NCBI GenBank assembly: GCA_001429555.1
Contig: LMSR01000003.1
Span: 1-64,000, forward strand
Origin: Nocardioides sp. Soil797
GTDB taxonomy: Bacteria > Actinomycetota > Actinomycetes > Propionibacteriales > Nocardioidaceae
Reading direction: 5' to 3'
Length of the DNA: 64,000 nt
The translations under genes and the position numbers were made by a program. This document shows positions 308-47,920 of this stretch, in pieces; position 1 is the stretch's first letter, and each line of letters opens with the position of its first letter. The notes under the pieces were generated by a model, which was given only the letters and a program-made list of their open reading frames with translations, did not search any database and had not been told where the DNA came from.

Positions 308-338
308 GTGATCGCCCAGGACCGTCTTGACACATAGG
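308..338 (+). promoter_or_regulatory. Two-box promoter motif, copy 1 (pilus operon)
   Basis: GTGATCGC (308-315), a 15-bp spacer, then CACATAGG (331-338) followed by TGA. The same pair of boxes occurs at four other places in the element with 16-bp spacing. It lies 29 bp before the chosen ATG at 368, a distance that suits a promoter. The cognate factor is unknown. Confidence 0.65.
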
Positions 339-367
339 TGATCGAGAGACGAGAGGACTCGGAACTG

Positions 368-1054
368 ATGTCGCTGGACACCGCACAGACCACCGCGGGG
401 GGACCGCCCCCGCCGCCGAACGCCCAGACGCAGCCTGCGCCCGCAACAGCCGCACGGGTCAAGGCACGCCGCCGGCCGTGGGTGTTCGCCCTGATGGCCG
501 CCCTGGTCGCGGCCGGCGCCCTGGGCACCGCGTTCGCCTTCACATCGGTCAACGACACCCAGGAGGTCCTCGTCGTCAGCAGCGACATCAAGCGCGGCGA
601 GATCATCGAGGCCGGTGACCTCGCCGTCGTCCGCGTCAGCGTCGACCCGGCGCTGACCCCGGTCCCCGGCAGCCAGAAGGCCGAGCTCGAGGGCAGCCGC
701 GCCGCGGTTGACCTATGGGCCGGCACCCTGCTGAGCGAGCAGGCCGTCACCGACAACCTGGTCCCGGGGGAGGGGGAGTCCCTGGTGGGCATCAGCCTCA
801 CTCCCGGCCAGATGCCCTCGGAGCCGCTCTACTCCGGTGACGCCGTCCGGATCGTCACCACGCCCGGTGATCAGGGCGAGGTCACCAACGAGGACCCGGT
901 CACGGTCGAGGCAGTTGTCGTTGGTGTTAGCCGCGTGCAGGAGACGGGCGAGACCGTCGTCGACGTCTCGGTGCCCCAGGCCGATGCCGCCGACCTGGCC
1001 GCCCGCGCCGCCACCGGACGGGTCGCGCTCGTCCTGGACACGCGGGAGCGCTGA
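368..1054 (+). CDS. SAF-domain membrane protein (CpaB/RcpC-like)
   Basis: First gene of the pilus operon, 228 aa. A proline-rich cytoplasmic N-terminus is followed by one membrane segment (about residues 38-58) and a SAF domain (about 67-130, around SSDIKRGEIIEAGDL). CpaB/RcpC proteins of this type accompany Tad pilus machines; in Gram-positives, which lack a secretin, the external domain probably acts in the cell wall. I chose ATG 368, preceded by a GAGAGG ribosome site, rather than the GTG at 338, because the GTG overlaps the promoter motif. It ends 3 nt before the next start. Confidence 0.75.
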   Translation: MSLDTAQTTAGGPPPPPNAQTQPAPATAARVKARRRPWVFALMAALVAAGALGTAFAFTSVNDTQEVLVVSSDIKRGEIIEAGDLAVVRVSVDPALTPVPGSQKAELEGSRAAVDLWAGTLLSEQAVTDNLVPGEGESLVGISLTPGQMPSEPLYSGDAVRIVTTPGDQGEVTNEDPVTVEAVVVGVSRVQETGETVVDVSVPQADAADLAARAATGRVALVLDTRER

Positions 1055-1057
1055 GGC

Positions 1058-1897
1058 ATGGCGCTGATCGTCCTCGCCTCCGCGAGCGGTTCGCCCGGCG
1101 TCTCCACGACGGCGCTCGGGCTCACCCTCAACTGGCACCGACCAGTGCTCCTGGTCGACGCCGACCCGACCGGCTCCTCCTCGGTCTTCGCCGGCTTCTT
1201 CCACGGCACCCAGGAGCCGACCGGCGGACTGATCAACCTCGCCCTCTCCTTGCGCGAGGGAACGCTGGCCGAGGCGCTGCCGCGCGAGACGCTGCTGCTG
1301 GACCCCGACGCACCGGCCGAGCGCTCGGCGTGGTTCCTGCCCGGCATCCGGTCCCACGAACAGGCCCCCAGCCTGCTGCCCCTGTGGGATCCGCTCACCG
1401 AGCAGCTGCGCGCCCTGGAGCGCAACGGCCAGGACGTCATCGTCGACGCCGGACGGCTCGGCCTCGCCGGCTGGCCCCAGCCGCTCATCGCTGCCTCCGA
1501 CCTGACGCTGCTCGTCACCCGCAGCTCACTGCCGGCCCTGGCCGGCGCCACCAGCTGGGCCAAGACCCTGCGGACACAGTTCGCCGGCGTCGGTGGCCTG
1601 TCCCGTCTCGGGGTCCTCCTCGTCGACGAGGAGCGACGCTGGCCCGCGATGCCCACCGGCGCCCGGGTCCGGCCCTACACCGCCCGCCACGTCGCCAAGG
1701 CTCTCCAGATCCCTGTCGTCGCTTCCGTGGAGTGGGAGCCCGAGGTGGCAGAGGTCTACTCCCACGGCGCCCGCAAGCCCCGCAAGTTCGAGTCCTCCGG
1801 GCTGCTGCGCGACTACCGGGCCAGCGCCGCGGCCATCCAGTCCATCCTCGGCGCCAACCAGGCCGCCCTCGCTCCCACGAACGGAGGCCACGCATGA
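1058..1897 (+). CDS. CpaE/TadZ-like ParA-family protein
   Basis: 279 aa with a ParA/MinD fold: an N-terminal P-loop-like SGSPGVSTTA, then LLVDADPTGS as the switch region and DVIVDAGRLG as a Walker-B-like strand. The lysine of the GKT signature is replaced by valine, so ordinary ATP hydrolysis is doubtful. CpaE/TadZ proteins position Tad pilus machines at specific cell sites and often have atypical P-loops, which fits its place between the SAF protein and the secretion ATPase. Its stop overlaps the next start (ATGA). Confidence 0.7.
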   Translation: MALIVLASASGSPGVSTTALGLTLNWHRPVLLVDADPTGSSSVFAGFFHGTQEPTGGLINLALSLREGTLAEALPRETLLLDPDAPAERSAWFLPGIRSHEQAPSLLPLWDPLTEQLRALERNGQDVIVDAGRLGLAGWPQPLIAASDLTLLVTRSSLPALAGATSWAKTLRTQFAGVGGLSRLGVLLVDEERRWPAMPTGARVRPYTARHVAKALQIPVVASVEWEPEVAEVYSHGARKPRKFESSGLLRDYRASAAAIQSILGANQAALAPTNGGHA

Positions 1898-10278: not shown

Positions 10279-10302
10279 CTCGGGGAGGGGAGCACCAGCA
10301 CC

Positions 10303-19546: not shown

Positions 19547-19578
19547 GTGATCGCTCGAACCGCCCCGCGACACATAGG
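19547..19578 (+). promoter_or_regulatory. Two-box promoter motif, copy 2 (ParA/T4SS genes)
   Basis: GTGATCGC (19547-19554), 16-bp spacer, CACATAGG (19571-19578) followed by CGACT. It begins right after the sigma-like gene and lies 21 bp before the ATG at 19600, which argues against the upstream in-frame ATG at 19528. Confidence 0.65.
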
Positions 19579-19599: not shown

Positions 19600-19818
19600 A
19601 TGACAAACACCCATGACGGCGAGACCCGAACGCCGGAGCAGATTGCCGAGCTGTTCGCGATCGCCGGACGCGAGATCGAGGCGATCGAGCAGCTGACCGG
19701 CTGCGTCGCCCAGCTGCACGAAGTCCAGGCCGCGAAGGCACAGCTGGCGACCCTGACCCCGGCCGAGGTCCGCGCCGCACTCGAGTTCCGCCGCGGCACG
19801 ATCGGGGAGGCCCAGTGA
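19600..19818 (+). CDS. Small helical protein of unknown function
   Basis: 72 aa, acidic, predicted to be all helix, no membrane segment. I chose ATG 19600 with GGAGG 11 nt upstream because an earlier in-frame ATG (19528) would place the promoter motif inside the gene. Its stop overlaps the ParA-like gene by 4 nt. It may be a partner of that protein; no domain is recognised. Confidence 0.6.
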   Translation: MTNTHDGETRTPEQIAELFAIAGREIEAIEQLTGCVAQLHEVQAAKAQLATLTPAEVRAALEFRRGTIGEAQ

Positions 19819-20663
19819 GCACCCAGACCTCGAGCCGCCCGGTCGGCGTCGACGAGCTCAAGCGCGCCTGGAACGCGGTGAGCGCCGGCGAGTTCCGCAC
19901 CGGCCCCGGCGCCGGCAAGGGCCCCCGCGGCCGCGGCACCGCCGCCGAGGACAACTGGACCCCGGCCGATGGCGAGCACACCATCGCCGTGATCGGGGCT
20001 GCAGGCTCAGTCGGCGCGAGCACCGTCGCCCTGGCCGCCGGCCTCGCTGCAGCCGCCCCGGTCCGAGTCATCGAGTGCTGCTCGGTCACCGCCTCCGGTC
20101 TCGCCGCGGCGAGCACCGCCGAGCTTGGCCTGCATCCGACCGACTGGCGTCAGGGCAAGCGCGACCACGTCTTGCTCGAGCGCGCCAGCGAGGTCCTCGC
20201 CGGCGTCGACGAGGTCCCGCTGCCCACCGAGGCAGAGAACGAGACCCAGCTGACCATCCTCGACATCGGCTGGGAGGCCGGCCAGATGCTGGCCACCGAC
20301 TGCTGGCTCGCCGAGGCCGTCCGCACCGCCGACCAGATCGTCCTGGTCACCACCGCCACCGTCCCCGGGATGCGTCGCGTCGGCGTCGTCATGGACCTCA
20401 TCGCCGGCCACTGGCAGCCGGAGCAGATCACGCTCGCCATCCGCGGGCCCCGCCGCAAGAAGTGGCCCCGCGGCCTCGAGCACGCCGGCGGCCCCGCCGT
20501 ACGTCGCGCCCTGGACGCGGACCGGTGCGTGGAGATCCCCGAGGACCGCGAGCTCGCGGTCAACGGCCTGGACTCCCGACCCGTCCCGGCCCCCCTGATC
20601 TCGGCAGCACGTCAGCTGCTCGAGGCCCAGCACCTGTCCACCGACACCAGCGAAAGCGCCTGA
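19815..20663 (+). CDS. ParA/CpaE-like P-loop protein of the T4SS
   Basis: 282 aa. After a 50-residue basic, Gly-rich N-terminus comes IAVIGAAGSVGASTVALAAG, a P-loop in which the lysine of GKT is alanine, then a switch-like ECCSVTASG and LTILDIGWEAGQ. The ParA fold without the lysine matches the CpaE-like protein of the pilus operon. Likely positions the conjugation machine or DNA. GTG start coupled to the preceding gene. Confidence 0.65.
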   Translation: MSTQTSSRPVGVDELKRAWNAVSAGEFRTGPGAGKGPRGRGTAAEDNWTPADGEHTIAVIGAAGSVGASTVALAAGLAAAAPVRVIECCSVTASGLAAASTAELGLHPTDWRQGKRDHVLLERASEVLAGVDEVPLPTEAENETQLTILDIGWEAGQMLATDCWLAEAVRTADQIVLVTTATVPGMRRVGVVMDLIAGHWQPEQITLAIRGPRRKKWPRGLEHAGGPAVRRALDADRCVEIPEDRELAVNGLDSRPVPAPLISAARQLLEAQHLSTDTSESA

Positions 20664-20700
20664 CCCGCCCGGGTCAGCAACCCAGAAAGGAAGTCCACCC

Positions 20701-20994
20701 ATGGACGTCATGACCGCACTCCTCCCGATGGCCGCCCAGGTCTGCCCGAAGGCGCCCCCGGGTGCTGTCGGCCCCACCAACGAGATCACCAGCTACGTGC
20801 TGTGGGGCGTCATCGTCCTGTTCGGTCTCGGCATCATCATCGCCATCGGCGCGATCATCGCCGGCCGGGTGTTCTCCCTGCCTCACGCCTCCAAGGTCGG
20901 CGTGATCTCGGTGGTGGTCGTGTTCGCCTGCGCGATCGCCTACCTGGTGCTGCCCGGCATGCTCAACGGCATCCTCGGCAAGGGCTGCATCTGA
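20701..20994 (+). CDS. Small two-TM protein, possible VirB2/TrbC-like subunit
   Basis: 97 aa: a short external segment with a cysteine, two membrane helices (about 31-55 and 62-84) and a C-terminal cysteine. Size, topology and place before the membrane subunits fit a VirB2/TrbC-type channel or pilin-like subunit, but there is no specific motif. AGAAAGGAAG precedes the ATG; the stop overlaps the next start. Confidence 0.6.
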   Translation: MDVMTALLPMAAQVCPKAPPGAVGPTNEITSYVLWGVIVLFGLGIIIAIGAIIAGRVFSLPHASKVGVISVVVVFACAIAYLVLPGMLNGILGKGCI

Positions 20995-21887
20995 TGCGGC
21001 GCGCAGCCACGAAGAAGGCAGAAGGCACCAGCGAGTGGAGCCGGCGCCGGCTGCTCGGCATCCTGGCCGCCGCCGTCGCCGTGGCTGCGCTCCTGCTCGG
21101 CGGCCTCGTGTACGCGGTCTACCTGGCGATCTCCGGCATCGGCGGCGAGGCCAGCGCGAACACCGGCGTGGCCACCGGCGAGACCGAGCGCTCGACGGTG
21201 GCCCGCGGTGCCGCTCACCGCGACGAGATCGCCGCCGAGCCGATGCTGACCGTGCCCGAGAGCGCGGCCTTCCCGGCCGAGACCACCAGCACCAAGGCCC
21301 CGGAGATCAAGATCCCGACCGGGACCGGAGTCAACGGACCCGCGTTCGTGATGACCGGCTTCCCGCAGACCCCGGAGGGCGCGATCGGCCAACTCGCCCA
21401 GATCGACCTCGCGGTGCTCCAGTCAATGAGCCTGAGCACCGCCGAGGAGGTCTACAACGCCTGGGCCCTGCCCGGCGGCGTCCGGGCGGAGGACTGGTGG
21501 ATCACCGCCAGCGTCCGCGCGTTCCTCTCCAGCACCGGGATGGGCGAGGTCAAAGACCCCAGCGCCTCGGTCTCCCTGGAGCCGGCCGCCGCACTGGTCA
21601 AGGGCACCGACGGCGCCGACTGGGCGACGGTCTGCGTGCTGATGAAGGTCAGCGCCACCTACAAGTCCGAAGGCCAGATCGCCTTCGCGCACTGCGAGCG
21701 CATGCAGTGGGTCGGCGGCCGCTGGATGGTTGCCCCCGGCGTCCCGCCGGCACCCGCGCCCGCGACCTGGCCCGGAACCCAGCTGGCACACGAGGCCGGC
21801 TGGCGCACCTGGTCGACCGACCACACCACCGAACCCACCAACCCCGGCGACCACGGCGACCACGGCGACCACGAAGGGGAGCACTGA
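20994..21887 (+). CDS. Bitopic T4SS membrane protein
   Basis: 297 aa. A basic cytoplasmic N-terminus, one membrane helix (about 18-45) and a ~240-aa external domain. Position and topology resemble the VirB8/TcpC-like subunits of Gram-positive conjugation systems; the sequence is not diagnostic. The C-terminus ends in a 9-nt tandem repeat giving GDH three times, a possible metal-binding His/Asp tail. ATG 20994 overlaps the previous stop. Confidence 0.65.
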   Translation: MRRAATKKAEGTSEWSRRRLLGILAAAVAVAALLLGGLVYAVYLAISGIGGEASANTGVATGETERSTVARGAAHRDEIAAEPMLTVPESAAFPAETTSTKAPEIKIPTGTGVNGPAFVMTGFPQTPEGAIGQLAQIDLAVLQSMSLSTAEEVYNAWALPGGVRAEDWWITASVRAFLSSTGMGEVKDPSASVSLEPAAALVKGTDGADWATVCVLMKVSATYKSEGQIAFAHCERMQWVGGRWMVAPGVPPAPAPATWPGTQLAHEAGWRTWSTDHTTEPTNPGDHGDHGDHEGEH

Positions 21888-21888
21888 G

Positions 21889-22689
21889 ATGAGCAACCGG
21901 ATGAACGACTCGATGGGGGAGACCCGCACCACCCTGCTGCTGCGCGTGGGGGTCCTGGTGGTGATCGCCGCACTCGTGGCGACCGCCGTCTGGCTCGGAG
22001 CTCGCGGCCGGACCGATGACAGCGGCGGCACCGACAAGACCACCGGCGACTCCTCGAGCCAGACCGGGCAGCAGGGGCAGAACGTCTCGGTCGACCAGGT
22101 CGCCCCGGAGACCGCTCCCGCAGACGGCGTCGTGATCCCGACCGGCGCCGACCAGGTCGACGGCTACCCGACCCGGTTCCCGCAGACCGACCTGGGCGCG
22201 GTCGCGCTCCAGGTCGAGGTCGCCAAGGCGCAGGTCGGGTTCGACTACGACCAGGCCGCCGCCGTCGCCGGCCTGTACGCCAACCCCGAGGACAAGGCCG
22301 TCTTCGAGCAGCGCGCCCGCGACGCCGTCGCACTGCGACGCCAGCAGGCCGGCGTCCCGAAGGAGGGTGACGTCCCCCCGCCCGCGTCGTACGCCGTGAC
22401 GCCGATCGCCTACACCCTCGAGGAGCTCGACACCGGCTACTACGCGGTGAACCTGCTCAGCTACGTCACCCTCACCACCGCGAACGGCAAGGTCAGCGAC
22501 GGCCTCTACGCCGGCACCCAGCTGATGCGGTGGCTCGAGGTCGACGGCGTGGGCGACTGGCGCCTGGTCAAGGGCAGCGACGAGGACATCGAGCACCTGG
22601 TCTCCACCGGCCAGCCCAAGGCGGTCGCGCCCGGCACGCCGGAGTACAAGCAGGCCGGCTGGATCCCGATCAACGGAGCCCCCCAGTGA
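21889..22689 (+). CDS. Bitopic T4SS membrane protein, VirB8/TcpC-like
   Basis: 266 aa. Short cytoplasmic N-terminus, one membrane helix (about 14-36), a Gly/Ser/Asp-rich linker and an external domain with an acidic, mixed alpha/beta pattern like NTF2-fold TcpC/VirB8 domains. Shares layout with the preceding gene, so the two may form a heteromer. Starts 1 nt after the previous stop and ends in a GTGA overlap with the VirB6-like gene. Confidence 0.65.
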   Translation: MSNRMNDSMGETRTTLLLRVGVLVVIAALVATAVWLGARGRTDDSGGTDKTTGDSSSQTGQQGQNVSVDQVAPETAPADGVVIPTGADQVDGYPTRFPQTDLGAVALQVEVAKAQVGFDYDQAAAVAGLYANPEDKAVFEQRARDAVALRRQQAGVPKEGDVPPPASYAVTPIAYTLEELDTGYYAVNLLSYVTLTTANGKVSDGLYAGTQLMRWLEVDGVGDWRLVKGSDEDIEHLVSTGQPKAVAPGTPEYKQAGWIPINGAPQ

Positions 22690-26248: not shown

Positions 26249-27786
26249 TGCCCACCACCACCCGCCGGAACCGTGGCGCCGGCCGCGACATGGCCGCCCT
26301 GCTGTCGGACTTCGGCCACGACCTGCCCACCATCCCCACGCTCGCCCCGGAGGCCAAGGAGCCCCGGATCTTCAAGTACGCCCCGCGCCGCGGTGCAGCC
26401 CGCCGCGGCCGCGGCTGGGCGCCCGCCTCCGCCCCGGCGCAGGCCTGGCGCATGACCAGCGACCAGGCGCCGGTGTTCTGGCCGTTCGTGTCCGCGCCGG
26501 CGCTGCCTCCGACCGGGGCACAGATGGGCGTCGACCAGCTCTCCGGCGGCTCGTTCTACTGCGACCCGTTCGGGTGGGTGCTGCGCGACGACGTGCCGGC
26601 GACCAACCCCAACATCTTCCAGTTCGCCAAGCCGGGTAGTGGCAAGTCGGGCACCACCAAGGCGTTCTGCACCCGGATGATGCCGTTCGGCTACCGCACC
26701 CTGGTCACCGGCGACGTCAAGGACGAGTACGAGTCGCTGTGCCGTGCGCTCGGTGTCGAGCCCTTCGTCATCGCCCCCGGGTTCTGGGCCCGGGTCAACC
26801 CGCTGTCCATGGGGCCGCTCGGCGATGGGTGGGAGAAGCTCTCGGCTGAGGAGGCGCAGCGGCGCGCCACCATCATCTTCAAGCGGTGGCTGGTCCTCGT
26901 CCGCGGCCTGGTCGGGTCCATGAAGATCGACGACGAGCGACGGGTGCCGTTCGGCCCCGACGAGAGCGACGTCGTCCGCAACGCCCTGGCGATCCTGACC
27001 GGCTACGCCGCCGGCAACACGGTGCTGCAGGAGACCACCATCCCGCGGCTGTGGGACCTGCTCCGCAACCCCACCGAGGAGCTCGTCCGGGCCTGCGAGT
27101 ACGCGAACACCCGCCAGTTCCTCGACGAGACCCGGCTGCTGCGCAACGCACTCGGCGAGCTGGTCACCGGCACCCTGGCCGGCCTCTTCGACGACTTCAC
27201 CAACATCGAGGTCGACTGGCGTGCCCCGATCCAGTCGTTCAGCCTCTCCCGGCTCGACGGCCTGGGCGATGAGGCCGTGGGCATCGCGCTGCTGTGCATG
27301 AACTCCTGGGGCCGCGGCCTGCGGGAGATCGCCGAACCCGGCGACCTGCGCATCGTCGTACGCGACGAGGTCTGGAAGCAGATGCGCCTCGGAACCGCCG
27401 CGGTGGCCAGCTTCGACGCCGACCTGCGGCTCTCCCGCGGCATGGCCGGCAAGGGTGGCGACATCCAGTTCTGCAACCTCCACAAGCCCTCCGACCTGCT
27501 CTCGGTCGGCGACGCCGACTCCCAGGCCGCGATGATCGCCAAGGACCTCCTCGAGCTGGCCGACATCAAGATCCTCGGCGCCCAGAAGCCTCGCGTCGCC
27601 CGCGAGCTCGACTCGATGCTCGGGCTCGGTCCGATCGCCCAGGACCTCGTCTCCGGGTGGGCGATGCAGGACAAGGGCCGTGCGCTGTGGTGCATCGGCG
27701 ACGCCACCTACAAGGTCCAGACGGTGCTCCACCCGCTGGAGAAGAAGCTCTACTACACCAACGAGGCCATCGAGGCCGCCGGCTGA
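26248..27786 (+). CDS. VirB4-type conjugation ATPase
   Basis: 512 aa cytoplasmic motor of the T4SS. Walker A KPGSGKSGTTK near residue 133, Walker B around LRIVVRDEVWKQM (about 370), followed by QFCNLHKPSD and the arginine-finger-type C-terminus. It lacks the usual VirB4 N-terminal domain, which is provided by the preceding SCO6880 protein. ATG 26248 is coupled to that gene; the much longer open frame to the left is an artefact of GC bias. Confidence 0.9.
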   Translation: MPTTTRRNRGAGRDMAALLSDFGHDLPTIPTLAPEAKEPRIFKYAPRRGAARRGRGWAPASAPAQAWRMTSDQAPVFWPFVSAPALPPTGAQMGVDQLSGGSFYCDPFGWVLRDDVPATNPNIFQFAKPGSGKSGTTKAFCTRMMPFGYRTLVTGDVKDEYESLCRALGVEPFVIAPGFWARVNPLSMGPLGDGWEKLSAEEAQRRATIIFKRWLVLVRGLVGSMKIDDERRVPFGPDESDVVRNALAILTGYAAGNTVLQETTIPRLWDLLRNPTEELVRACEYANTRQFLDETRLLRNALGELVTGTLAGLFDDFTNIEVDWRAPIQSFSLSRLDGLGDEAVGIALLCMNSWGRGLREIAEPGDLRIVVRDEVWKQMRLGTAAVASFDADLRLSRGMAGKGGDIQFCNLHKPSDLLSVGDADSQAAMIAKDLLELADIKILGAQKPRVARELDSMLGLGPIAQDLVSGWAMQDKGRALWCIGDATYKVQTVLHPLEKKLYYTNEAIEAAG

Positions 27787-27807
27787 GGCGCTCGGGACTG
27801 ACCTGTC

Positions 27808-30800
27808 GTGAAGAAGCTGCTGCTCGCCGGACTGCCGGTCCTGATCATCTTCATGGGCCTGCCGTTGCTGGTCTCCCTGATGGTGGTCATGAGCACGACC
27901 GCGGCCGCGGAGTGCCGGACCCAGACCAACCAGAGCGCCCCCACCGAACTCGGCGACCTCGGCGTCATCGACGGGCCCGTGGGCGGCCCGGTCAAGGGCA
28001 AGGTCACCCTGGCGCAGGCCAACATCCCGCGCCGGTCCGGCCTCGATGGCTTCCGTGCGTCCATGCCCAAGGTCCTCTCGACCAACCCCGACTTCGTCAC
28101 CCTGAACGAGGCAAGCGGGTGGACCCTTGCGCAGATCGAGGCCGCCGCCCCCGGTTACGGAGCGTTCCGGGTCTCCGACCACACCGGCGACAACAACTCC
28201 ATGGGCAACGTCGTGCTCTGGAAGCGCGACACCTGGTCCAAGGCCAACGGAGGCCGGGTCACCCTCGTCGTCGACGACAACACCTACTACCAGGGCCGGG
28301 CGGTCACCTGGGACCGGTTCGCCACCTGGGTCATTCTCGAGCGCGCTGACGGCGCCGTGGTCTCGGTCATCTCGACCCACCACATGACCAACCCGCACAA
28401 GTGGCCCCGGCAGCACGGCAACCCGCCGCTGACCCGGCCCCAGCAGTACGGCGCCGGGATGGACATCCTGCTGCAGCTGCGCAACTCGCTGGCCACCCAC
28501 GGCCCGGTGCTCATCGGTGGCGACATGAACACCCACGCCTCCTACACCAACCTGCCGTGGGCGGCGGCCGCGAAGATGAAGGCCGCCGGTTACGGATGGC
28601 ACGACCACGCGGTCGACTTCGTCTTCTTCCCCCAGCACCAGGGCGTGCGCCTCGAGCGGGGATGGTCCGGAACGATGGTCTCCGACCACCACTGGATCTC
28701 GGCCCGCCTCTCCATGAACGGCGCCGGCCCCGAGAGCGCCCCCGCGCCCGCGGCCACCAGTGATGGCGTGGTGAACGTCGCCCACACCACGAAGACGGCG
28801 GCCGAGCCGCCATCCGGCGACGTGCTCGCCCAGCTGATGCGGCTGCGGTTCGCCTCCAGCTACCCGACCATGACCGCCGAGCAGGCACGCAACGCGATCA
28901 CCATCGCCCAGGTCGCCCGCGACCTCCAGGTGCCCCGCCGCGGGCTGCAGATCGCCATCGCCACCGCGATCCAGGAGTCCAAGCTGGTCAACCTCACCGG
29001 CGGCGACCGCGACTCCGGCGGCCTGTTCCAGCAGCGCCCCTCTCAGGGCTGGGGAAGCCGCGCCGAGGTCACCAACCCGGTGCTCGCCGCACGCGCCTTC
29101 TTCGGTGAAGCCCAGCACACCGGCAACCCCGGGCTGCTCGACATCCCCGGCTGGCAGAACATGCCGCTGACCCAGGCTGCCCAGGCCGTGCAGCGCTCCG
29201 GCTTCCCCGACGCCTACGCCCAGTGGGAGGACGTAGCCGGCGACATCACCGACCTGCTCGGCGGCGACCTGCCCGACCTTCCCGACGACGGCACCACCAC
29301 GAACGTGGCCAACTGTCAGGGCGAGACCATCAGCCCGGTCACCGTCGGCACCCTCAACCTGCTCGGCGCTGGCCACACCGACAAGGCGGGGGAGCGGCCC
29401 GGCTTCGACACCTGGGACAAGCGACTGCCCGGCGCCATGCGCACGATCGAGAACGCAGGCGTCACCATCGCCGGCCTCCAGGAGGTGCACGGTCCGCAGG
29501 CCAAGGCACTGGAGAACCAGTACGCGGCCAAGTGGGGGATCTACCCCGCCAGTGGGAAGGCACAGAACCGGGTCATCTGGGACCGCAACGAGTGGAAGCA
29601 GACCGACGGTCGCCTCGTCGACATCCCCTACTTCGACGGCAAGGACGTCGGCATGCCCCTGGTGCAGCTGACGTCGACGACCACCGGTCAGGTGATCTGG
29701 GTCTGGAGCATCCACAACCCCGCCAACACCCACGGGAACGCCGCCGAGCACCGCAAGGAGGCGCTGCGCCGCCAGCTGGCCACCATGACCGACGTTGCCG
29801 GCACCGGCATCCCCGCGGTGATCCTGGGCGACTTCAACGACGGCAAGGACGGCAACGACTCCTCACACTGCGCGCTCACCCCCGAGCTCACCAACGCCTT
29901 CGGCGGGTCGGCAGAGCCGTGCAAGAAGCCCAAGAAGGCCGCCCCGATCGATCACATCTACGGCGCCAACCTGACCTGGGCCAGCGCCGAGGTCGACAAC
30001 AGCACGCAGGCCAGCAAGATCGCCGACCACCCGCTGGTCATCGCCACCACCGCCGGCAGCAGCGCGGGCTGTGCGGTGGCCCAGGCGACCAACTACAACC
30101 TCGGCCCGGTCAAGCCGCAGTTGACGCAGCTGGTGAACATTCTCGGCCCGATGTTCGACATCAAGACCGTCGGCGGCTACCGCGAGAGCGCCACCGACCC
30201 CGACGGCCACCCGGCCGGGCTGGCGGCCGACTTCATGGTCCCGCTCACGCCCGCCGGCAAAGCCCAAGGGGACGCGCTCGTGGCGTACGCCCAGGCCCAC
30301 GCTCGCGAGCTCGGGATCGACTACATCATCTGGTACCAACGCATCTGGTCGGTCGCGCGAGCCGACGAGGGCTGGCGGCGGATGGAGGACCGGGGCTCGG
30401 CCACCGCCAACCACATGGACCACCCGCACATCAACGTGCTGCCCGACGCCAAGGTCACCCCGATCGGCCTCGAGGGCGCCTCCTGCGACGAGGTGGTCTA
30501 CCCGGTGCCGGCGAAGTACATCGGCACCGACAACCACAACTGGCACGAGACCGGCCCCTACTGGACCAACTGGCACACCGGCACCGACTTCTCCGCGCCC
30601 TGCGGCACGACCGTCTACGCCGCCCACGCCGGCACCATCGAGATCGACACCAGCCAGGGCTGGGCAGGCCCGCAGCTGGTCAAGGTCACCACCGGCGCCG
30701 GGTCCCTGACCACCTGGTACGCGCACATGCAGAGCGTCACCGTCAGCCGCGGCCAGACCGTCGCCGCCGGCGAGCCGATCGGCCAGATCGGCAAGGAAGG

Positions 30801-30927
30801 CAACTCCTCCGGGTGCCACCTCCACTTCGAGGTCCACCTCAAGAACGGCTCCATCTACGGCCCCGACAACGTCGACCCCTCGGCCTGGCTGGCGAAGAAC
30901 GCCTCAAAGCCGACCCGCGCCGTCTGA
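27808..30927 (+). CDS. Secreted five-module protein: two nuclease-like domains plus three cell-wall hydrolase modules
   Basis: 1039 aa, GTG start, N-terminal membrane/signal helix (about 2-32). Module 1 (about 69-305) is an endonuclease/exonuclease/phosphatase (EEP) fold with NIPRR, LNEAS, STHHMT, GGDMN and SDHHW. Module 2 (about 365-470) is lytic-transglycosylase-like with AIQESKL. Module 3 (about 510-750) is a second EEP domain with GLQEVHG, LGDFND and DHIYG. Module 4 (about 760-885) resembles D-Ala-D-Ala carboxypeptidase/ARB_07466 (GGYRES, AADFMV). Module 5 (about 897-1030) is an M23 endopeptidase with HTGTD and HLHFEVH. Key residues are intact in all five. Equivalent genes in other T4SS carry only wall hydrolases. 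Confidence 0.85.
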   Translation: MKKLLLAGLPVLIIFMGLPLLVSLMVVMSTTAAAECRTQTNQSAPTELGDLGVIDGPVGGPVKGKVTLAQANIPRRSGLDGFRASMPKVLSTNPDFVTLNEASGWTLAQIEAAAPGYGAFRVSDHTGDNNSMGNVVLWKRDTWSKANGGRVTLVVDDNTYYQGRAVTWDRFATWVILERADGAVVSVISTHHMTNPHKWPRQHGNPPLTRPQQYGAGMDILLQLRNSLATHGPVLIGGDMNTHASYTNLPWAAAAKMKAAGYGWHDHAVDFVFFPQHQGVRLERGWSGTMVSDHHWISARLSMNGAGPESAPAPAATSDGVVNVAHTTKTAAEPPSGDVLAQLMRLRFASSYPTMTAEQARNAITIAQVARDLQVPRRGLQIAIATAIQESKLVNLTGGDRDSGGLFQQRPSQGWGSRAEVTNPVLAARAFFGEAQHTGNPGLLDIPGWQNMPLTQAAQAVQRSGFPDAYAQWEDVAGDITDLLGGDLPDLPDDGTTTNVANCQGETISPVTVGTLNLLGAGHTDKAGERPGFDTWDKRLPGAMRTIENAGVTIAGLQEVHGPQAKALENQYAAKWGIYPASGKAQNRVIWDRNEWKQTDGRLVDIPYFDGKDVGMPLVQLTSTTTGQVIWVWSIHNPANTHGNAAEHRKEALRRQLATMTDVAGTGIPAVILGDFNDGKDGNDSSHCALTPELTNAFGGSAEPCKKPKKAAPIDHIYGANLTWASAEVDNSTQASKIADHPLVIATTAGSSAGCAVAQATNYNLGPVKPQLTQLVNILGPMFDIKTVGGYRESATDPDGHPAGLAADFMVPLTPAGKAQGDALVAYAQAHARELGIDYIIWYQRIWSVARADEGWRRMEDRGSATANHMDHPHINVLPDAKVTPIGLEGASCDEVVYPVPAKYIGTDNHNWHETGPYWTNWHTGTDFSAPCGTTVYAAHAGTIEIDTSQGWAGPQLVKVTTGAGSLTTWYAHMQSVTVSRGQTVAAGEPIGQIGKEGNSSGCHLHFEVHLKNGSIYGPDNVDPSAWLAKNASKPTRAV

Positions 30928-30955
30928 TCGCTGCCGGGCCCGCCCGGCACATAGG
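30924..30955 (+). promoter_or_regulatory. Two-box promoter motif, copy 3 (VirD4 pair)
   Basis: CTGATCGC (30924-30931), 16-bp spacer, CACATAGG (30948-30955) followed by TGACC. It starts in the last codons of the five-module gene and lies 35 bp before the ATG at 30991, giving the coupling-protein genes their own promoter. Confidence 0.65.
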
Positions 30956-41750: not shown

Positions 41751-44700
41751 TCAGCGCCGCGGAGTGCCGCGCCGCGGCGGTCGCGGACTGTTGATGTCCT
41801 GCCGGTCGCGCGCTGCTCCCTGCGAGGTGGTCCGCGCCGGCGTGCCCTCGCCGGTGTCGATCGGGAGCTCGAGCCGGGAGACGATCCGGTAGCGCAGGTC
41901 GCGGGCGGGGCTGTCACCCAGCGGCTTCTCGGTGACGATCGCACGGGCGGCGGCACCGACGTCGTGACCCTGCTCGTGGGCCTGCTGCAGCATCGCTGCG
42001 GTGGCCGGCCAGTCGCCCTGCTCGAGCAGGCGCGGGTCGAGCTCGCGGGCCAGCGGCGCCCACCGCTCGGCGGGCGTCTTGTCGGCCGCGGCCGCCAAGC
42101 GAGCGCGGACGTCGCTGCTCTTGTGCAGCTCGGCCAGAGCCGCCTTCCACGGGTCGGCATCCCACGTCTTGACCGCGTCCCGCAGGTCGCGACGGGCCTG
42201 CAGCTGGGACAGTTGCAGCCGTGCCCCCACCTGGTTGACCCCCGGCTCCCAGGCCCGGCTGGGCCGGGCCGAGAGAACCCGCATGGCCGCCACCCGCGCC
42301 TGTTCGGGGCCGAGGTTGTCGAGCCGCTCGGTGAGGAGCTGGTCGCCGAGGGCACGGAAGGCGGGCTGCCCGCTGGCCACCGCGGCGGTGAGCGCGGCCG
42401 GACCGCGCTGGGCCAGCAGGTCGGCCGGGTCCAGGCCATCGGGGAACCGGGCGAAGCCGGGGTCCATGCCGTGCGGGGTGAGCATCCAGAAGTCCCGCTC
42501 GGCCGCGACCTGGCCGGCCAGGTCGGCGTCGGTGGCCACGATCGGGTCGCGCCCCACGGCGGCCAGCTGGGCGGCCTGCTCGTCGGTCAGGGACGTGCCA
42601 AGCGGGGCTACGCCGAGGTAGAGGCCGGCGCTGGCGATCGTGACGGCGATTGCGTCCATCGGGCCCTCGACGATCACCGGGACCGCGCCCTCGGCGAGCA
42701 GCTCGTCGACGACGCCGAACAGCTGCGCGCCCTTGTGGAACAGCGGGGTGTCGGCTGTGTTGAGGTACTTCGGTCCGGCCTTGTCGGCGTCGGTGAGGTC
42801 GGGCCGGCGGCGGCCGACGAAGCCGAGCACCTCGCCCTGGTGGATCACCGGGAACATCACGCGGTCGCGGAACCGGTCGATGAGGCGGCCGGTGCTGGCC
42901 TCGGTGGCGACGCCGGTGGCGAGCATCTCTGCGTCGCTGACGCCGCGGCCGCGGAGGTGGTCGACCAGGTTGGTCCAGCCAGCCGGGGCCTGGCCGGGGC
43001 GGAACCGTGCGTCGCCGGCGAGGTCGACGCCGAACCGGCCGGTGAGGTAGTCGCGGCCCCACGAGTCGGTGAACCGCGACTCGAAGAAGGTCTGGGTGAG
43101 CTCGTTGATCTCGACCATCCGCTCACGCGTGACCGGGGAGGAGTGCCACTCATCGGCCCGCTGGTACATGAGCCGGATGTCGGCGTCGGTGGGCTCCAGC
43201 CGGGTGCCGCCGAGGTCGCGGAGGTAGGCGGCAAGCGTGAGGTCGGGTTCGACGTACTGGTCCTCGTCGACGTCGACCAGGTCCTCCTCGAGCTCGTCGA
43301 CCAGGTGCTCGTCGACCACGTCGACGGCCGGCTCGAGGTCCTCGGCCAGTGGCCACGGGACGTCGTCGGGGTGGTCGACGAACGCCGCCGGGTCGGGCTC
43401 GACGCCCTCCCACATGTCGGCGGGCGGCTCCTCGGCGTGGTACTCGTGCGCGTGCTCGTCGGGGGCGGTCTCCAACGCGATCGAGGTCCGCCAGACCAGC
43501 GCCTGGCACTCGTCGACGCCCTCCCACCCGTCGCTGGGCATCGCTCGGCCAGCGCCCAGCAGGGCCTCGAGCTGCCAGCCGCGCTGCAGGCCGTGGTCGA
43601 CGTTGGAGACCAGCGCCGGCCACCAGGTGCTGGCTTGGATGCTCGCGGCCCGCTCGGGACCGAACAGCTCCGCGAGCCGCGGAGCCCAGTCGGTGGTGAC
43701 GCTCTCGCCGTGGGAGCCGTCGCCGATCTGCGCGGCGACGGCCGGCGTGAGCTGGCGGGCCATGCGCCACCAGACCGCGGCCGCGGCGTGCTCGTCGGGA
43801 AGCGGGCCGGCCGGGTGGTCGGGGGCGGTGGCGGTGCGCAGCAGCTGGTGGGCGGTGACGCCGGCGCGCGACATCGCGGCCAGCCGCTCGGCCAGGAGCG
43901 GGGTGAACTCGTCGTTGCGGACCTGCGGGGCGAGCGTGTGGAGCAACTGGCGCCATTCCTTGAGCGCCGGGGTGTGGTCTCCGGTGATGGCTCGGTTGAG
44001 GCGCCGCTGGTAGGTGGAGGAGGCCTTCTGCCGCTGCGGGGCACCGGTCGGTCGCCGGTCGTCCACGGGGACCTGCATGGCGGCGCGCCAGACCTCGACG
44101 TCGGCCACCGTGGCAGCCTCGGGACGGATGCCGTTCTGCGCCCACACCGGCCCCGAGGGCTGCGCGACGGCGCGGGTGTGGACCTGCTCGGCGAGCTGCT
44201 CGACCAGGTGCGCGCGCTGGGCGAGGTAGGCACCCCAGTGCGGGTCCTCGGCTAGACGCGTCGGGATCCCGGGCATCCACGGCAGCGGGCCGGCGCCCGC
44301 GTTGCGCAGGCCGGAGGCGTCCAGGCGCCAGTCCAGGACCGCGGCCCGGTCGTGCGCGCTCTCCAGCTCCCGGTCGCCGGCCGCGGCGCGGAGCGCTTCG
44401 ACGGGGTTCTCCCCGGCGGCGCCGAGCAGGAGCAGGTGGGCGCGCAGGGTGGGCCAGGCGGCCTCCTCCGACAGCCCGGGCGCCAGGTTCTCGACGGCGG
44501 TGTCCAGCGCGTCGACCATGTTGACCGTGGTGCCGTCGGCGCGGGTGATGGCCTCGTGGCGCAGCAGGTCCTCGGCGGCGACGTAGAGGCTGTCGAGGTA
44601 GCGCTGGGAGGCCTCGCCCAGTCGGGTGGCCGGGTCGGCCTGCTCGCGGATCAGGCTGGTCGCGGACCGCTGCGCGTCGTCGCGGGCCAGCATCGACTCG

Positions 44701-47645
44701 AGGATGTCGGTGGGGGTGAGCGGCCGGACCAAGGTCGGGTGGGTCACCGAGTGCGGGTCGCCGTCGCCGACGACCTCGAGGTAGACGTGGTTGGCGTGCG
44801 CGCCGCGGGTCATCATCGTGTAGAGCTGCTGGCGCGACTCGGCGCCGGTGGCCAGCCCGTGCATCGTGTCGGCGGTGACGCCCTGGGCGGTGTGCACGGT
44901 GCACGCGTAGCCGAGCTCGGTGGAGCGGGCGACGTAGTCGGCGGGCAGTCGCACGGTGCGGCCGTGCTGGGTGTGCTGGACGGTCAGGTCGCCGCCGTCG
45001 TGGATCTCCAGGACGGTCCAGCGGTCGCCGTTCTTCACCCAGTCGGTGGCTGAGGTGCGCAGCCGGCGGTCGTTCTCGCGGGTGATGATCAGCTCGCCGA
45101 TCGAGGCCTCGTTTCCGTCGGCGAGCCGGCGGACCGGGCCACTGGCGGCGACGTCGGTGGGGTCGATCCCCTCGAGGCGGTGCGCGCGGGCCTGCTGGTT
45201 CAGCTCGCTGACCAGGTCGCGGGTGGGGGCGAGCATGATCGAGTCGAGCCCGGCGGCGCGGTCGGCCTGCCAGGCGGCGAAGACGTCCTCGGTCATGGTG
45301 GCCAGGTCGCCGACGTGGACCCGGTCGCGGTCGAGGTAGAAGCCGAGCGCCTCGGCCTTGCCCTCGCGCAGCGCGAGCGAGGCGGCGCCCTCGGCGGGGT
45401 CCTTGAACCGGACGAGCTCGGTCAGCTGCAGAGCCCCGTGGGTGGCGCGGATGTCGCGGAGCACGCCGCCGGCGCCGATCGCGGAGAGCTGCTGGTCGTC
45501 ACCGATCAGTCGGACGCTGCCGCCGCGCTCGAGGATGTAGGAGACCGCCGCGTCCAGCGAGAGCGTGTCGGCCATGCCGGCCTCGTCGATGACGACGAGG
45601 GTGGAGGAGTCGATGCCGGCGACCCAGTCCGGCATCGCGGCTCCGGTCTCGCGGGCCTGCTCGAGGGAGTGGGTGAGCTTGGCCAGGGTGTCGGTCTGGG
45701 TGTCGATCTGGGAGCGCAGGGCGTCGGCGGCCGCGGCTGAGGGGGCCAGGCCGATGACGGTTCCGCCCCCGTCAGCCCAGGCGCTGGCCAGGGCTCGCAT
45801 CGCGGTGGTCTTGCCCGATCCGGCCGGCGCGATCGCCAGCTGGAGCCGGGCGCCGGAGGTGGCCATCTCCCGGACCAGGGTGGCCTGTCCGGCGTTGAGG
45901 GTGATGCCGTTGGCGGTCGACTCCAGCAGTGCCAGGTCGACCGACGCGGCCTCGACCGCGTACCCGTCGTGGCGGCCGGCGGCGTCGACCAGGCGCTGCT
46001 CGGCGGCCAGCACCTTGCTCGAGGTGAACAGGCCGGCCCCGGCCTGGGTGTAGACCGAGGAGCCGTCGGCGCGGCGCAGCTCGGCCGGCTCGCTGATGGT
46101 GTCCCAGGGGCGGGCCATGCTCACCGAGTGGTCGTCGAGGACCTCGCTGACGAGCAGGTCGACGACCTGGGAGACCTGGTTGGTGGGCACGTTGGCGGCC
46201 CGGACCTGCCGCTGGGCCTCGGCGTAGACGTGCCAGTACTGCCAGGTGCTGCGGCTGCCCTCCATCGTTGCCACGATGCGGCCGGTGGTCTTGGCGAACC
46301 AGGCTGAGTCGGCCAGTGAGCGGGCCGCGCCCTTGGGGTTGAGGGCGCCGTGGACCATCTGCTTTACCCGTTGCGGGGTGCCGAGCACCTCGACCGCCTC
46401 GCGGTTCCAGGTCTCGCGCTGCTCGGCCAGCGAGCGCGGTTCGTGCTTGGCCTCGCGGGTCTCCAGCGTCGCCTGCTGGGACAGCTGGATCGTCTCGACC
46501 GGGGTCGGGGGCCGCCCGTGGGTGGCCTGGAAGGCGGCCGCGAGGACCTTGCGGCGGTCCTCGACGCTGGCGCGGCGTTTGGAGAAGCGGCGGTTGAGCT
46601 CGGGGTCGACGCCGACGATCTCGCGGATCGGCCGCTTGCGTGCGTCCTCGTTCGGGCGCTCCTCAAAGCGCACGCCGAGGGCGTCGACCAGGTGCCGCTC
46701 GAGCGCGGTGTTGTAGGTCTCCGAGGCCGACACGACTGCCTTGTGCAGCGGCCGCCCGTCGATGGCCAGCCACTTGCCGTCGAGGGTCTGGACCTTGTTG
46801 GCCACGGCGACGTGGGTGTGCAGGTCGGGGTCGCCGGCGCGGGAGTCGCGGTGGGTGAACGCGGTGGCGATCAGGCCGCGGACGTCGACCTGGCGCACGC
46901 CGTTGGTGCCCTGGCGGGTGAACAGTGCCTTGGTCTCGATGAACTCGAGGGCGCCCTTGATCGCTGCCTGGTGGGCCCGTTCGATCACCGCGGCGGTCTT
47001 CGGGTCGGCGATCGCCCACAGCACCGAGACGCTCTTGACCGGGGAGAAGGTCAGGTCGTAGCCGGCCACGGCGTTGGTCTTCGGGCGGGAGTGCTTGGCG
47101 ATCGTGGCGGCGAGCTCGCGGGCGTCGGCCGGCTCGCGGCCGTGCTCGGCACGGAAGAACTCCGCGGCCACCTCGGTGCGGACCTTGGCCCGGTCGGCCG
47201 CGGGGACCGGCCAGTCACCGGGCAGGCCGGCGGCCTCGTTGAGGGCCGCGATGCGCTTGGCGACCTCGATCCGAAACGGGCTGATGTCGTTGTCGTAGAC
47301 CTTGTACGGGGTGCCGAGGCGGACCGCGGTCTTGTAGTCGGCCTCGGTCGGGCGGCCGGCCCCGTCGCGGCCGATGCGCAGGTCCAGCTCCTTGGTCCGC
47401 TGGGTGGCCAGCGGGTGGTGTCCGGAGCCGAACAGGCTCTGCATGTGGTCGGCGGTGACGACGTCGCCAGCGTCGAGTCCCTCCAGGCCCTCCATGCCCG
47501 AGCCGAGCCACACTCCGGGCGTCTCGCCCTTCTCGGTGTAGTAGCTCGCCAGCCCGGTGTGGCCCTTGTCGGTGGCGTCCATCGCTGCGACCTGACGGGT
47601 CAGGTAGTCGTACCCCGACCCGGCCGTCAGCTTGTGGAGGCTCAT
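41751..47645 (-). CDS. Giant TrwC-type relaxase with helicase and primase-like domains
   Basis: 1964 aa, processes the DNA for transfer. The TrwC relaxase domain (about 1-340) has the three-histidine motif in DLHTHVAVANKV (about 270). A RecD-like SF1 helicase follows (about 580-960) with APAGSGKTTAM, VVIDEAGM and TVHTAQGVTAD. The C-terminal third (about 1480-1780) resembles the DnaG catalytic core with TOPRIM motifs VEGPMDAIA (about 1655) and ATDADLAG (about 1710), without a zinc finger. The tail is very basic. ATG 47645 lies just downstream of a promoter motif, so the mRNA leader must be very short. Confidence 0.9.
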   Translation of the reverse strand: MSLHKLTAGSGYDYLTRQVAAMDATDKGHTGLASYYTEKGETPGVWLGSGMEGLEGLDAGDVVTADHMQSLFGSGHHPLATQRTKELDLRIGRDGAGRPTEADYKTAVRLGTPYKVYDNDISPFRIEVAKRIAALNEAAGLPGDWPVPAADRAKVRTEVAAEFFRAEHGREPADARELAATIAKHSRPKTNAVAGYDLTFSPVKSVSVLWAIADPKTAAVIERAHQAAIKGALEFIETKALFTRQGTNGVRQVDVRGLIATAFTHRDSRAGDPDLHTHVAVANKVQTLDGKWLAIDGRPLHKAVVSASETYNTALERHLVDALGVRFEERPNEDARKRPIREIVGVDPELNRRFSKRRASVEDRRKVLAAAFQATHGRPPTPVETIQLSQQATLETREAKHEPRSLAEQRETWNREAVEVLGTPQRVKQMVHGALNPKGAARSLADSAWFAKTTGRIVATMEGSRSTWQYWHVYAEAQRQVRAANVPTNQVSQVVDLLVSEVLDDHSVSMARPWDTISEPAELRRADGSSVYTQAGAGLFTSSKVLAAEQRLVDAAGRHDGYAVEAASVDLALLESTANGITLNAGQATLVREMATSGARLQLAIAPAGSGKTTAMRALASAWADGGGTVIGLAPSAAAADALRSQIDTQTDTLAKLTHSLEQARETGAAMPDWVAGIDSSTLVVIDEAGMADTLSLDAAVSYILERGGSVRLIGDDQQLSAIGAGGVLRDIRATHGALQLTELVRFKDPAEGAASLALREGKAEALGFYLDRDRVHVGDLATMTEDVFAAWQADRAAGLDSIMLAPTRDLVSELNQQARAHRLEGIDPTDVAASGPVRRLADGNEASIGELIITRENDRRLRTSATDWVKNGDRWTVLEIHDGGDLTVQHTQHGRTVRLPADYVARSTELGYACTVHTAQGVTADTMHGLATGAESRQQLYTMMTRGAHANHVYLEVVGDGDPHSVTHPTLVRPLTPTDILESMLARDDAQRSATSLIREQADPATRLGEASQRYLDSLYVAAEDLLRHEAITRADGTTVNMVDALDTAVENLAPGLSEEAAWPTLRAHLLLLGAAGENPVEALRAAAGDRELESAHDRAAVLDWRLDASGLRNAGAGPLPWMPGIPTRLAEDPHWGAYLAQRAHLVEQLAEQVHTRAVAQPSGPVWAQNGIRPEAATVADVEVWRAAMQVPVDDRRPTGAPQRQKASSTYQRRLNRAITGDHTPALKEWRQLLHTLAPQVRNDEFTPLLAERLAAMSRAGVTAHQLLRTATAPDHPAGPLPDEHAAAAVWWRMARQLTPAVAAQIGDGSHGESVTTDWAPRLAELFGPERAASIQASTWWPALVSNVDHGLQRGWQLEALLGAGRAMPSDGWEGVDECQALVWRTSIALETAPDEHAHEYHAEEPPADMWEGVEPDPAAFVDHPDDVPWPLAEDLEPAVDVVDEHLVDELEEDLVDVDEDQYVEPDLTLAAYLRDLGGTRLEPTDADIRLMYQRADEWHSSPVTRERMVEINELTQTFFESRFTDSWGRDYLTGRFGVDLAGDARFRPGQAPAGWTNLVDHLRGRGVSDAEMLATGVATEASTGRLIDRFRDRVMFPVIHQGEVLGFVGRRRPDLTDADKAGPKYLNTADTPLFHKGAQLFGVVDELLAEGAVPVIVEGPMDAIAVTIASAGLYLGVAPLGTSLTDEQAAQLAAVGRDPIVATDADLAGQVAAERDFWMLTPHGMDPGFARFPDGLDPADLLAQRGPAALTAAVASGQPAFRALGDQLLTERLDNLGPEQARVAAMRVLSARPSRAWEPGVNQVGARLQLSQLQARRDLRDAVKTWDADPWKAALAELHKSSDVRARLAAAADKTPAERWAPLARELDPRLLEQGDWPATAAMLQQAHEQGHDVGAAARAIVTEKPLGDSPARDLRYRIVSRLELPIDTGEGTPARTTSQGAARDRQDINSPRPPRRGTPRR

Positions 47646-47656
47646 CGTCACGGTCA

Positions 47657-47688
47657 CCTACGTGCGCACTCGCGCGGCAGGCGATCAT
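47657..47688 (-). promoter_or_regulatory. Two-box promoter motif, copy 5 (relaxase, minus strand)
   Basis: On the minus strand ATGATCGC (47688-47681), 16-bp spacer, CACGTAGG (47664-47657) followed by TGACC. The second box ends 11 bp before the relaxase ATG (47645). The GTG at 47657 is part of the motif and is not a likely start. Confidence 0.65.
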
Positions 47689-47888
47689 CTTCGGCCGGAT
47701 TTCTGGTGTGTTCTTTCTATTCGGCGAACCGAGAATGCAAGAGGTGTGTGGCACTTGGTCGGTCGCGGAAATCTGGGGGGACGCTGAGGGGGGTCGGGTG
47801 ACGGCTGGGCGTCGAGTTCGGATCGGGCTGGCTGGACGGGTTCGGCGGTGTCGGTGGGGGAGCGGATTTCGAAGGTTTCTGGGGTTCG
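47689..47888. other. Candidate origin of transfer between divergent promoters
   Basis: A 200-bp non-coding stretch lies between the relaxase promoter and the promoter of the small accessory gene, the usual place for oriT. It has a small hairpin (TCGG-CGAA-CCGA, about 47720-47732), two copies of CGGATTTC and one GGGGGGACG (47775-47783). The nick site cannot be assigned. Confidence 0.45.
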
Positions 47889-47920
47889 GTGATCGCTCGG
47901 GGACCGGGAAATGTCGTAGG
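47889..47920 (+). promoter_or_regulatory. Two-box promoter motif, copy 4 (accessory gene)
   Basis: GTGATCGC (47889-47896), 16-bp spacer, GTCGTAGG (47913-47920) followed by TGACT. It lies 38 bp before the ATG at 47959 and divergent to the relaxase copy. Confidence 0.6.

Follow-up and report, generated by a model that had tools for sequence, protein, structure and literature searches.

A repeated two-box motif upstream of the transfer operons of a Nocardioides element and a divergent sigma-like protein as its likely reader

Introduction

How does a conjugative element of Actinobacteria switch on pilus, secretion, coupling protein and relaxase genes that lie in separate operons? This question is raised by the first 64 kb (64,000 nucleotides, hereafter the window) of the 95,662-bp contig C3 of Nocardioides sp. 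Soil797, whose genome assembly comprises 4.38 Mb in 17 contigs. The window encodes a Tad-type pilus, a type IV secretion system (T4SS), a TraG/VirD4 coupling protein and a MobF relaxase, and a copy of the same two-box sequence is found upstream of each of them. To our knowledge, little is known about how actinobacterial elements with a T4SS turn on their transfer.

An initial annotation, made from the letters alone, had described five copies of TGATCGC, a spacer of 15 or 16 bp, CACRTAGG and a following GA, each placed 11-38 bp before a start codon, and had proposed a dedicated regulon with an unusual sigma factor or activator that shows which genes belong to the element. From the analysis presented here we consider it likely that the motifs are the promoters of one transfer regulon, read by a divergent factor of the sigma70 family that the element itself encodes at 18585-19538.

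The two-box motif and its spacing

The pattern TGATCGC-N15/16-CACRTAGG was found exactly at four sites of the window, namely 309-338, 19548-19578 and 30925-30955 on the forward strand and 47657-47687 on the reverse strand, their starts being shifted by one base from those first reported. The fifth copy, at 47890-47920 (+), has TGATCGC and a correctly spaced TAGG, while its second box (GTCGTAGG) differs from CACRTAGG at two positions; TAGG is therefore present at all five sites and the CAC part is not general. After the second box, the reported GA belongs to TAGGCGA at 19548 and to TAGGTGA at the other four sites. A better consensus is TGATCGC-N17/18-CNTAGG, whose arrangement corresponds to the geometry of a -35/-10 promoter. 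The proposed distances to the start codons were confirmed, as the likely ATG follows TAGG by 29, 21, 35 and 38 nt, and by 11 nt in the case of the relaxase; two boxes at a fixed spacing, 11-38 nt before starts, are what is expected of a sigma-dependent promoter. We know of no actinobacterial sigma consensus, nor of any consensus of extracytoplasmic function (ECF) sigma factors, that these boxes resemble.

As had been supposed, the motif is not a product of chance: no match was obtained in 100 dinucleotide shuffles of the window, a result that together with the reversed-pattern controls and the class-sample background given below rules out such an origin. Moreover, a weight matrix trained on 65 sites, the six C3 sites among them, gave six sites scoring 20.3-22.8 along the 95.7 kb of C3, the next best scoring 9.7, and no site upstream of the candidate sigma gene itself. 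The sixth site, C3:79070, lies upstream of a gene for a single-stranded DNA-binding protein (SSB; SSB Pfam E=3.7e-17) and a seventh was located at C8:9095. At an eighth, C3:93849, the -10 box is interrupted by an IS110-family insertion, TGATCGC...CACCTAG being followed by foreign sequence; its intact counterpart in G269 reads CACCTAGGTGAC. A relaxed form of the motif matched 17 times in the whole genome, and the six matches within called genes (on C2, C5, C12 and C13, and at C15:398293 and C17:92390) were taken as chance. Genes were called with a simple GC-frame script.

Distribution and conservation of the sites

The exact motif was detected in 56 of 294 Nocardioidaceae genomes, in which the sites are clustered, and the reversed control gave no match in any of them. 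In a sample of the class outside the family, 11 of 180 genomes had a match, with 12 matches in total and one for the reversed control, which is background. The motif is thus not equally common on host chromosomes, in contrast to the 2-8 matches in each of 36 of the 37 family genomes that carry a close homologue of the candidate sigma factor.

Seven related elements, plasmids or integrative and conjugative elements (ICEs) of about 100 kb, were fetched (G139, G105, G177, G272, G285, G081 and G269, of which G272, G081 and G269 are partial). Their sites precede the counterparts of the window's pilus, T4SS, coupling-protein, relaxase and accessory genes, and these orthologous positions support the dedicated regulon proposed at the outset. 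Further sites of these elements lie before genes for SSB, a 76-aa protein and a 114-aa protein (the latter with an AAA ATPase gene behind it in G177); in G139 and G105 another lies about 620 bp before the start of the integrase gene.

When 16 element stretches (1,095,172 bp) were scanned, 82 TGATCGC-N18..20-TAGG sites were found and none of the reversed pattern. Eighty-one of the 82 lie outside genes called by a simple gene finder; under a looser test, three overlap a gene end or start. The gap between TGATCGC and TAGG is 20 bp in 70/81 sites and 19 bp in 11/81, which places CNTAGG 17 or 18 bp from TGATCGC. Among 65 sites selected by TGATCGC and TAGG, the C of CNTAGG is present in 63, and the bases TGAC follow TAGG with counts of 53 (T), 65 (G), 62 (A) and 56 (C). 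A reading of TGATCGC and TGAC as the half sites of a direct repeat was also considered.

Eight orthologous site classes with 4 to 9 sequences each were also compared. Mean pairwise identity was 0.89-1.00 in CNTAGG, 0.63-0.86 in the spacer and 0.35-0.85 in the 30 bp upstream; the 0.63-0.99 of the downstream bases is partly due to the ribosome sites and starts that lie there, and the 1.00 of TGATCGC is by construction, as the sites were chosen by that box. For an unbiased check, T4SS loci were located through the sigma gene (at least 77% identity, n=26) and relaxase genes through their start (n=12). Both TGATCGC and TAGG were recovered in 25 of the 26 T4SS loci, with box columns at 0.96-1.00; five spacer columns fall to 0.58-0.73, other spacer columns also reaching 1.00. 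The relaxase genes have TGATCGC in 9/12 and TAGG in 11/12, the copy on contig C15 showing TGATCGT.

A candidate sigma factor encoded beside the T4SS operon

The gene 18585-19538 stops 9 bp before the T4SS site, in agreement with the unusual sigma factor or activator that had been suspected. It is kept at 86-99% identity in 7/7 related elements, and three public records carry it: pCHL of Nocardioides sp. QY071 (110,680 bp, circular), where the homologue is annotated as "hypothetical protein", and two plasmids of Pimelobacter simplex. Predicted structures and sub-threshold sequence matches make its product the likeliest reader of the motif.

An AlphaFold model built from 41 sequences has a mean predicted local distance difference test score (pLDDT) of 76.7 and a predicted template modelling score of 0.53, with pLDDT under 50 at residues 176-222. 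In a Foldseek search with this model, 50 of the 50 rows listed were, by title and chain, sigma subunits or fragments; in a closer structural alignment, one of 50 rows, an epitope scaffold, was non-sigma by title. Residues 41-162 superpose on an RpoS region 1.2-2 fragment (Z 9.1, root-mean-square deviation (rmsd) 2.9, 96/96 residues) and residues 221-314 on region 4 of SigD (3vep_A; Z 7.7, rmsd 2.2, 70/70). A second member of the family, a protein of 267 aa from an Actinomycetales metagenome-assembled genome (L197) with 46% identity to the window protein in the alignment, was modelled with a pLDDT of 88.7; sigma chains occupied 49/50 of its Foldseek rows, and its residues 1-145 match region 2 of sigmaS (Z 9.4, rmsd 3.6, 100 residues). 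The predicted folds thus contain a region 2 and a region 4 helix-turn-helix of the sigma70 type.

At the sequence level, hhalign aligned the family to 20 host sigma factors with 74-79% probability over 45 positions of region 4, whereas the probability did not exceed 1.2% for nine decoy families of the element and was 0.2% for the reversed alignment. Sigma70_r4 was the most frequent Pfam family in a set of 41 members (18/41, best E 0.0011, all sub-threshold), and the NCBIfam sigma70-ECF model appeared in five (best 0.034), none of these being a proper match. A sigma region 2 is recognised in 35 host proteins; as none of them is encoded on C3, the candidate is hidden from standard annotation. 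No relative of it was detected in the phage records searched.

Co-occurrence of the sigma candidate and the motif

A homologue with at least 78% identity was present in 37 of the 294 family genomes. The exact motif occurs in 36 of them, never fewer than two times, as compared with 20 of the 257 others (hand count; Fisher p=1.3e-30, a value that overstates independence given that the genomes are related). In G194, the single exception, there are four sites whose CAC part is altered. Elements whose sigma is more diverged (48-60% by tblastn) keep TGATCGC-TAGG sites as well: six in G018, three in G214, three in G266 (one within a called gene) and one in G202. CCTAGG is found at 6/6 sites of G018, and G202 displays TGAACGC versions at its T4SS and pilus sites, which suggests that motif and sigma may co-vary among these elements. 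In the 20 motif-bearing genomes lacking a close sigma, the matches of G195 and G015 and one of the two of G213 are within called genes, and among those inspected G006, G203, G222, G187 and G154 carry islands of the type described next.

Putative mobilizable islands with the motif before xis

The motif had been expected to show which genes belong to the element. It does precede the transfer operons, but mobilizable islands carry it too. Sites were also found before small helix-turn-helix (HTH) genes, one 70-aa family of which is present in 77/294 genomes (E<=1e-5). We took the best match to this family, the excision gene xis, from each of 30 genomes: within 220 bp upstream, 19 loci have TGATCGC-N17..21-TAGG and five a relaxed form, the reversed pattern giving none. 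Of these 24 genomes, 15 are devoid of a sigma homologue of at least 78% identity, and in 11 of the 15 a profile search returned no full-length member of the sigma family.

Ten island stretches of 27-40 kb were analyzed. Eight have an exact site 16-20 bp behind the relaxase gene and pointing to xis; the eight relaxases are 28-30% identical to that of the plasmid, integrases are shown for 5/8, and in G246 and G164 xis was missed by the gene finder and placed there by family search. In the G029 island the set comprises a TrwC relaxase (E=2.5e-51), two small HTH_17-type proteins (one below cut-off) and a Phage_integrase. A tblastn search of all ten stretches detected neither VirD4 nor VirB4 nor the sigma. 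By gene content, islands of the G029 type appear to be integrative mobilizable elements (IMEs), having a relaxase, an integrase, an excision gene and no T4SS seen. The Soil797 genome itself has an island-like set on C17 (a 751-aa relaxase at 28%, a site and an xis-like gene), and on C15 a site behind the gene of a 1945-aa relaxase with 78% identity to the plasmid relaxase.

Proposed mechanism and alternative readers

According to the mechanism we propose, the sigma factor would bind the host core RNA polymerase, with TGATCGC serving as the -35 box for its region 4 and CNTAGG, at a distance of 17 or 18 bp, as the -10 box for its region 2. Its production would co-activate the operons for pilus, T4SS, coupling protein, relaxase, SSB and accessory proteins; in integrated members the int/xis region would probably respond as well. 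Transcripts starting a few nucleotides past the boxes would have a normal leader in most cases; with its ATG 11 nt after TAGG, the relaxase mRNA may be nearly leaderless. In IMEs of the same hosts, where xis would be under the same promoter, the helper's sigma would trigger excision.

Several observations weigh against this proposal. Regarding the protein, no Pfam family matched the window sequence above cut-off (Sigma70_r4 reached 12.2 bits against 24.1, E=0.14; such a library cut-off is a convention and not a property of the protein), NCBIfam gave nothing at E<=1 and sequence searches of the PDB returned no sigma. The profile match is restricted to region 4, with no sequence match to region 2. 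The best PDB Foldseek E value of the window model is 0.016, Z scores of 7-9 can also arise between helical proteins from the arrangement of their helices alone, and a viral structure library gave mixed results, some phage sigmas appearing among unrelated proteins (best E 0.005). Regarding the sites, the G096 stretch has four, yet no sigma was found in the G096 genome at E<=0.001; in diverged elements the relaxase site is altered or lost (G202 has TAGG only, G214 neither box); six of the 30 xis loci have no site; and two sites on C6, upstream of catabolic-type genes, together with one in G160 are embedded in a block of about 130 bp, which the proposal does not account for. Finally, the sigma gene of Knoellia and its relatives is followed by a conserved GTCCA...GGCTTTGGG pair, but as an exact pattern this pair gave three matches in six genomes, all at those same T4SS sites, and one for the reversed control.

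Two of these points have a wider context. The block of about 130 bp is non-coding and conserved, the exact motif in it being followed by TGCAT (C6:36111 and C6:42990, L016/L017; G160:C33:1012, L091); it may be an RNA element or a sigma target in its own right. Distant sigma relatives (31-48%) occur in genomes of the Intrasporangiaceae type (L192, L195, L198, L200, L201 and L204), with another conserved sequence behind the sigma gene; a second regulon in this clade is not claimed, since the box pair fails to recur in the six genomes.

The two boxes could instead be an operator for another regulator of the element, the candidates being a tandem DnaA-domain-IV protein, an XRE protein and a ParB-like protein. 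DNA-binding domains were recognised in the first two, both of which are encoded in the site-bearing but sigma-less G096 stretch; the ParB-like protein shows a weak ParB_N match. Nevertheless, no tandem DnaA-domain protein was detected in the stretches of G194, G214, G018, G202 and G266, nor the other two in those of G194, G214, G202 and G266, all of which have the sigma and sites (absence refers here to fetched stretches of 70-100 kb, not to whole genomes, and they may be incomplete). No alternative DNA-binding candidate tested occurs in all the diverged-sigma stretches, and the spacing and position before start codons are those of a promoter. We regard this alternative as unlikely, the standing of the tandem DnaA-domain protein being lowered in particular by its five absences.

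It is quite improbable, in our judgement, that the element merely uses a host sigma factor or a host activator as reader. The number of recognised sigma factors in the host, the islands bearing the motif in genomes that lack the element sigma and the two catabolic-type sites on C6 would fit such a scheme; against it, motif and element sigma strongly co-occur, and the exact site is absent from 238/294 family genomes and rare outside the family, so that no host regulon with the exact motif was seen. That the sites are some other conserved DNA (an origin, a recombination site or an RNA element) copied around the element is hardly credible, as for all their very strict conservation and the longer block around three C6-type copies, the boxes stay constant while spacers and flanks vary between site classes, the gap between them varies by one base only, and the sites occur on both strands, each one in the window pointing into a gene start. 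The element-encoded sigma factor is accordingly the reader that we favor in what follows.

Organization of the element

Contig C3 carries the same 98 bp at both ends. An IS110-family transposase gene (94250-95359) adjoins this stretch, and its flank, like the shared stretch itself, is matched by the ends of the 13.4-kb contig C8. Since the C8 genes sit between the same neighbours in G177:C2, the two contigs are probably parts of a single circle of about 110 kb that is interrupted by two copies of the insertion. The features of the window are collected in Table 1; the content of the T4SS operon was established from gene calls, domain matches and the public pCHL annotation.

Table 1. Promoter-like sites and transfer genes of the window
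Feature	Position	Strand	Remarks
Pilus-operon promoter-like site	309..338	+	TGATCGC 309-315, N17, CATAGG 333-338; orthologous site in 8 stretches
CpaB/RcpC-like pilus gene	368..1054	+	SAF domain E=1.3e-08; ATG 29 nt after TAGG
Tad-type pilus operon	first gene 368..1054, to about 11138	+	extent inferred from gene order
T2SSE ATPase	1894-3585		pilus operon
Candidate cryptic sigma, 317 aa	18585..19538	+	predicted region 1.2/2 (about 1-162), disordered linker, region 4 (221-314)
T4SS-operon promoter-like site	19548..19578	+	9 bp past sigma stop codon
T4SS operon	19600..30927	+	72-aa gene, 282-aa gene, small proteins, TrbL/VirB6-like, SCO6880-like, ATPase, Exo_endo_phos + M23 peptidase
Coupling-protein-operon promoter-like site	30925..30955	+	first TGA is the stop codon of the M23 gene
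200-aa protein	30991-31593	+	
TraG/VirD4 coupling protein	31590-33068	+	TraG-D_C E=1.8e-24, T4SS-DNA_transf E=4.2e-17
MobF relaxase-helicase-primase fusion, 1968 aa from GTG	41751..47657	-	TrwC E=3.4e-87, AAA_30, DNAG_N E=5e-26, Toprim_2
Relaxase promoter-like site	47657..47687	-	ATG 11 nt after TAGG
Accessory-gene promoter-like site	47890..47920	+	TGATCGC, N18, CGTAGG; divergent from relaxase site; orthologous in 8 stretches
Accessory 129-aa charged protein	47959..48348	+	no Pfam match; kept in 7 elements

The relaxase, which joins a TrwC relaxase, a helicase and a DnaG-type primase (DNAG_N plus Toprim), is 89-95% identical across the seven elements. The 72-aa product of the first T4SS-operon gene (19600-19818), directly behind the sigma gene and kept in 7/7 related elements, could at a guess be a regulator of the sigma. 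At the other end of this operon, the protein of 27808-30927 fuses an endonuclease/exonuclease/phosphatase domain to an M23 peptidase, a region that the pCHL annotation splits differently. The part of that annotation examined includes genes for a T4SS, for the coupling protein and for a relaxase of the MobF type.

Type I restriction-modification genes (HsdR and HsdM; 35337-41550, reverse strand) lie between the transfer modules; they show 89-92% identity in pCHL and 31-40% in G139, and were not found in the other five elements. Cargo with reductase-type and catabolic genes occupies 12468-18015 and about 53778-76314 of C3 and, except for a few weak matches, is absent from the seven related elements. 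On C8 (L018), 10121-11056 (-) encodes the tandem DnaA-domain protein of 311 aa, with two Bac_DnaA_C matches (DnaA domain IV, E=1.6e-32) and no ATPase domain match, which occurs in several of the elements.

Relation to known systems and significance

The proposed regulon may be likened to those of AcaCD in IncA/C plasmids and SetCD in SXT/R391 ICEs, where, in the parts of the reports that describe them, one element-encoded master activator acts on one repeated motif before several transfer operons (PMC4207636, PMC5704250). The likeness is functional only: AcaCD and SetCD are activators of Gammaproteobacteria, whereas the cryptic sigma-like candidate of these Actinobacteria would itself recognise the -35 and -10 boxes. 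The same sources describe how SGI1 and MGI islands, unrelated and mobilizable, use the AcaCD or SetCD motif before an excision gene (PMC4207636, PMC5704250), and the simplest reading of our islands, by analogy, is that they await the helper's sigma as those islands await AcaCD or SetCD.

With ECF/group 4 sigma factors, which have regions 2 and 4 only, the candidate family shares the predicted folds and a two-box promoter with 17-18 bp between boxes. Unlike them, it is longer (about 260-320 aa), its N-terminal part aligns to region 1.2, and it stays below the Pfam and NCBIfam cut-offs. A sigma-like gene on a conjugative plasmid is also described for the E. coli IncK plasmid pCT, namely the putative sigma pCT_066 (PMC3377399), a likeness at the level of description; the passages of that report on plasmid sigmas of this kind call their role little understood and give no regulon (PMC3377399). 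In the open-access literature we found no paper on an element-encoded sigma running a conjugative T4SS.

Like canonical IMEs, the islands have their own relaxase, integrase and excision gene, without a T4SS seen. The pertinent part of a 2017 review gives a single canonical IME for Actinobacteria, with a MobV relaxase (PMC5704250), from which the present islands differ by their MobF (TrwC) relaxases and their helper-type promoter.

We lean, somewhat tentatively, towards a broader view in which conjugative elements of the Nocardioidaceae run their transfer programme on a private, unrecognised sigma factor, and widespread MobF IMEs have captured its promoter for xis; the diffusible sigma would then be a signal from helper to satellite, and diverged sigma clades of other actinobacteria would form separate channels, insulated from one another. 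Three public plasmids bearing the sigma (NZ_CP124682.1, NZ_CP097985.1 and NZ_CP096277.1) are typed as non-mobilizable by MOB-suite, so that elements of this kind are overlooked. If the proposal is true, a dedicated sigma factor would allow the transfer genes to be listed from sequence alone, would explain the co-regulation of pilus, T4SS and relaxase and would offer a simple on-switch, and sigma factors would join the known ways in which satellites sense their helpers.

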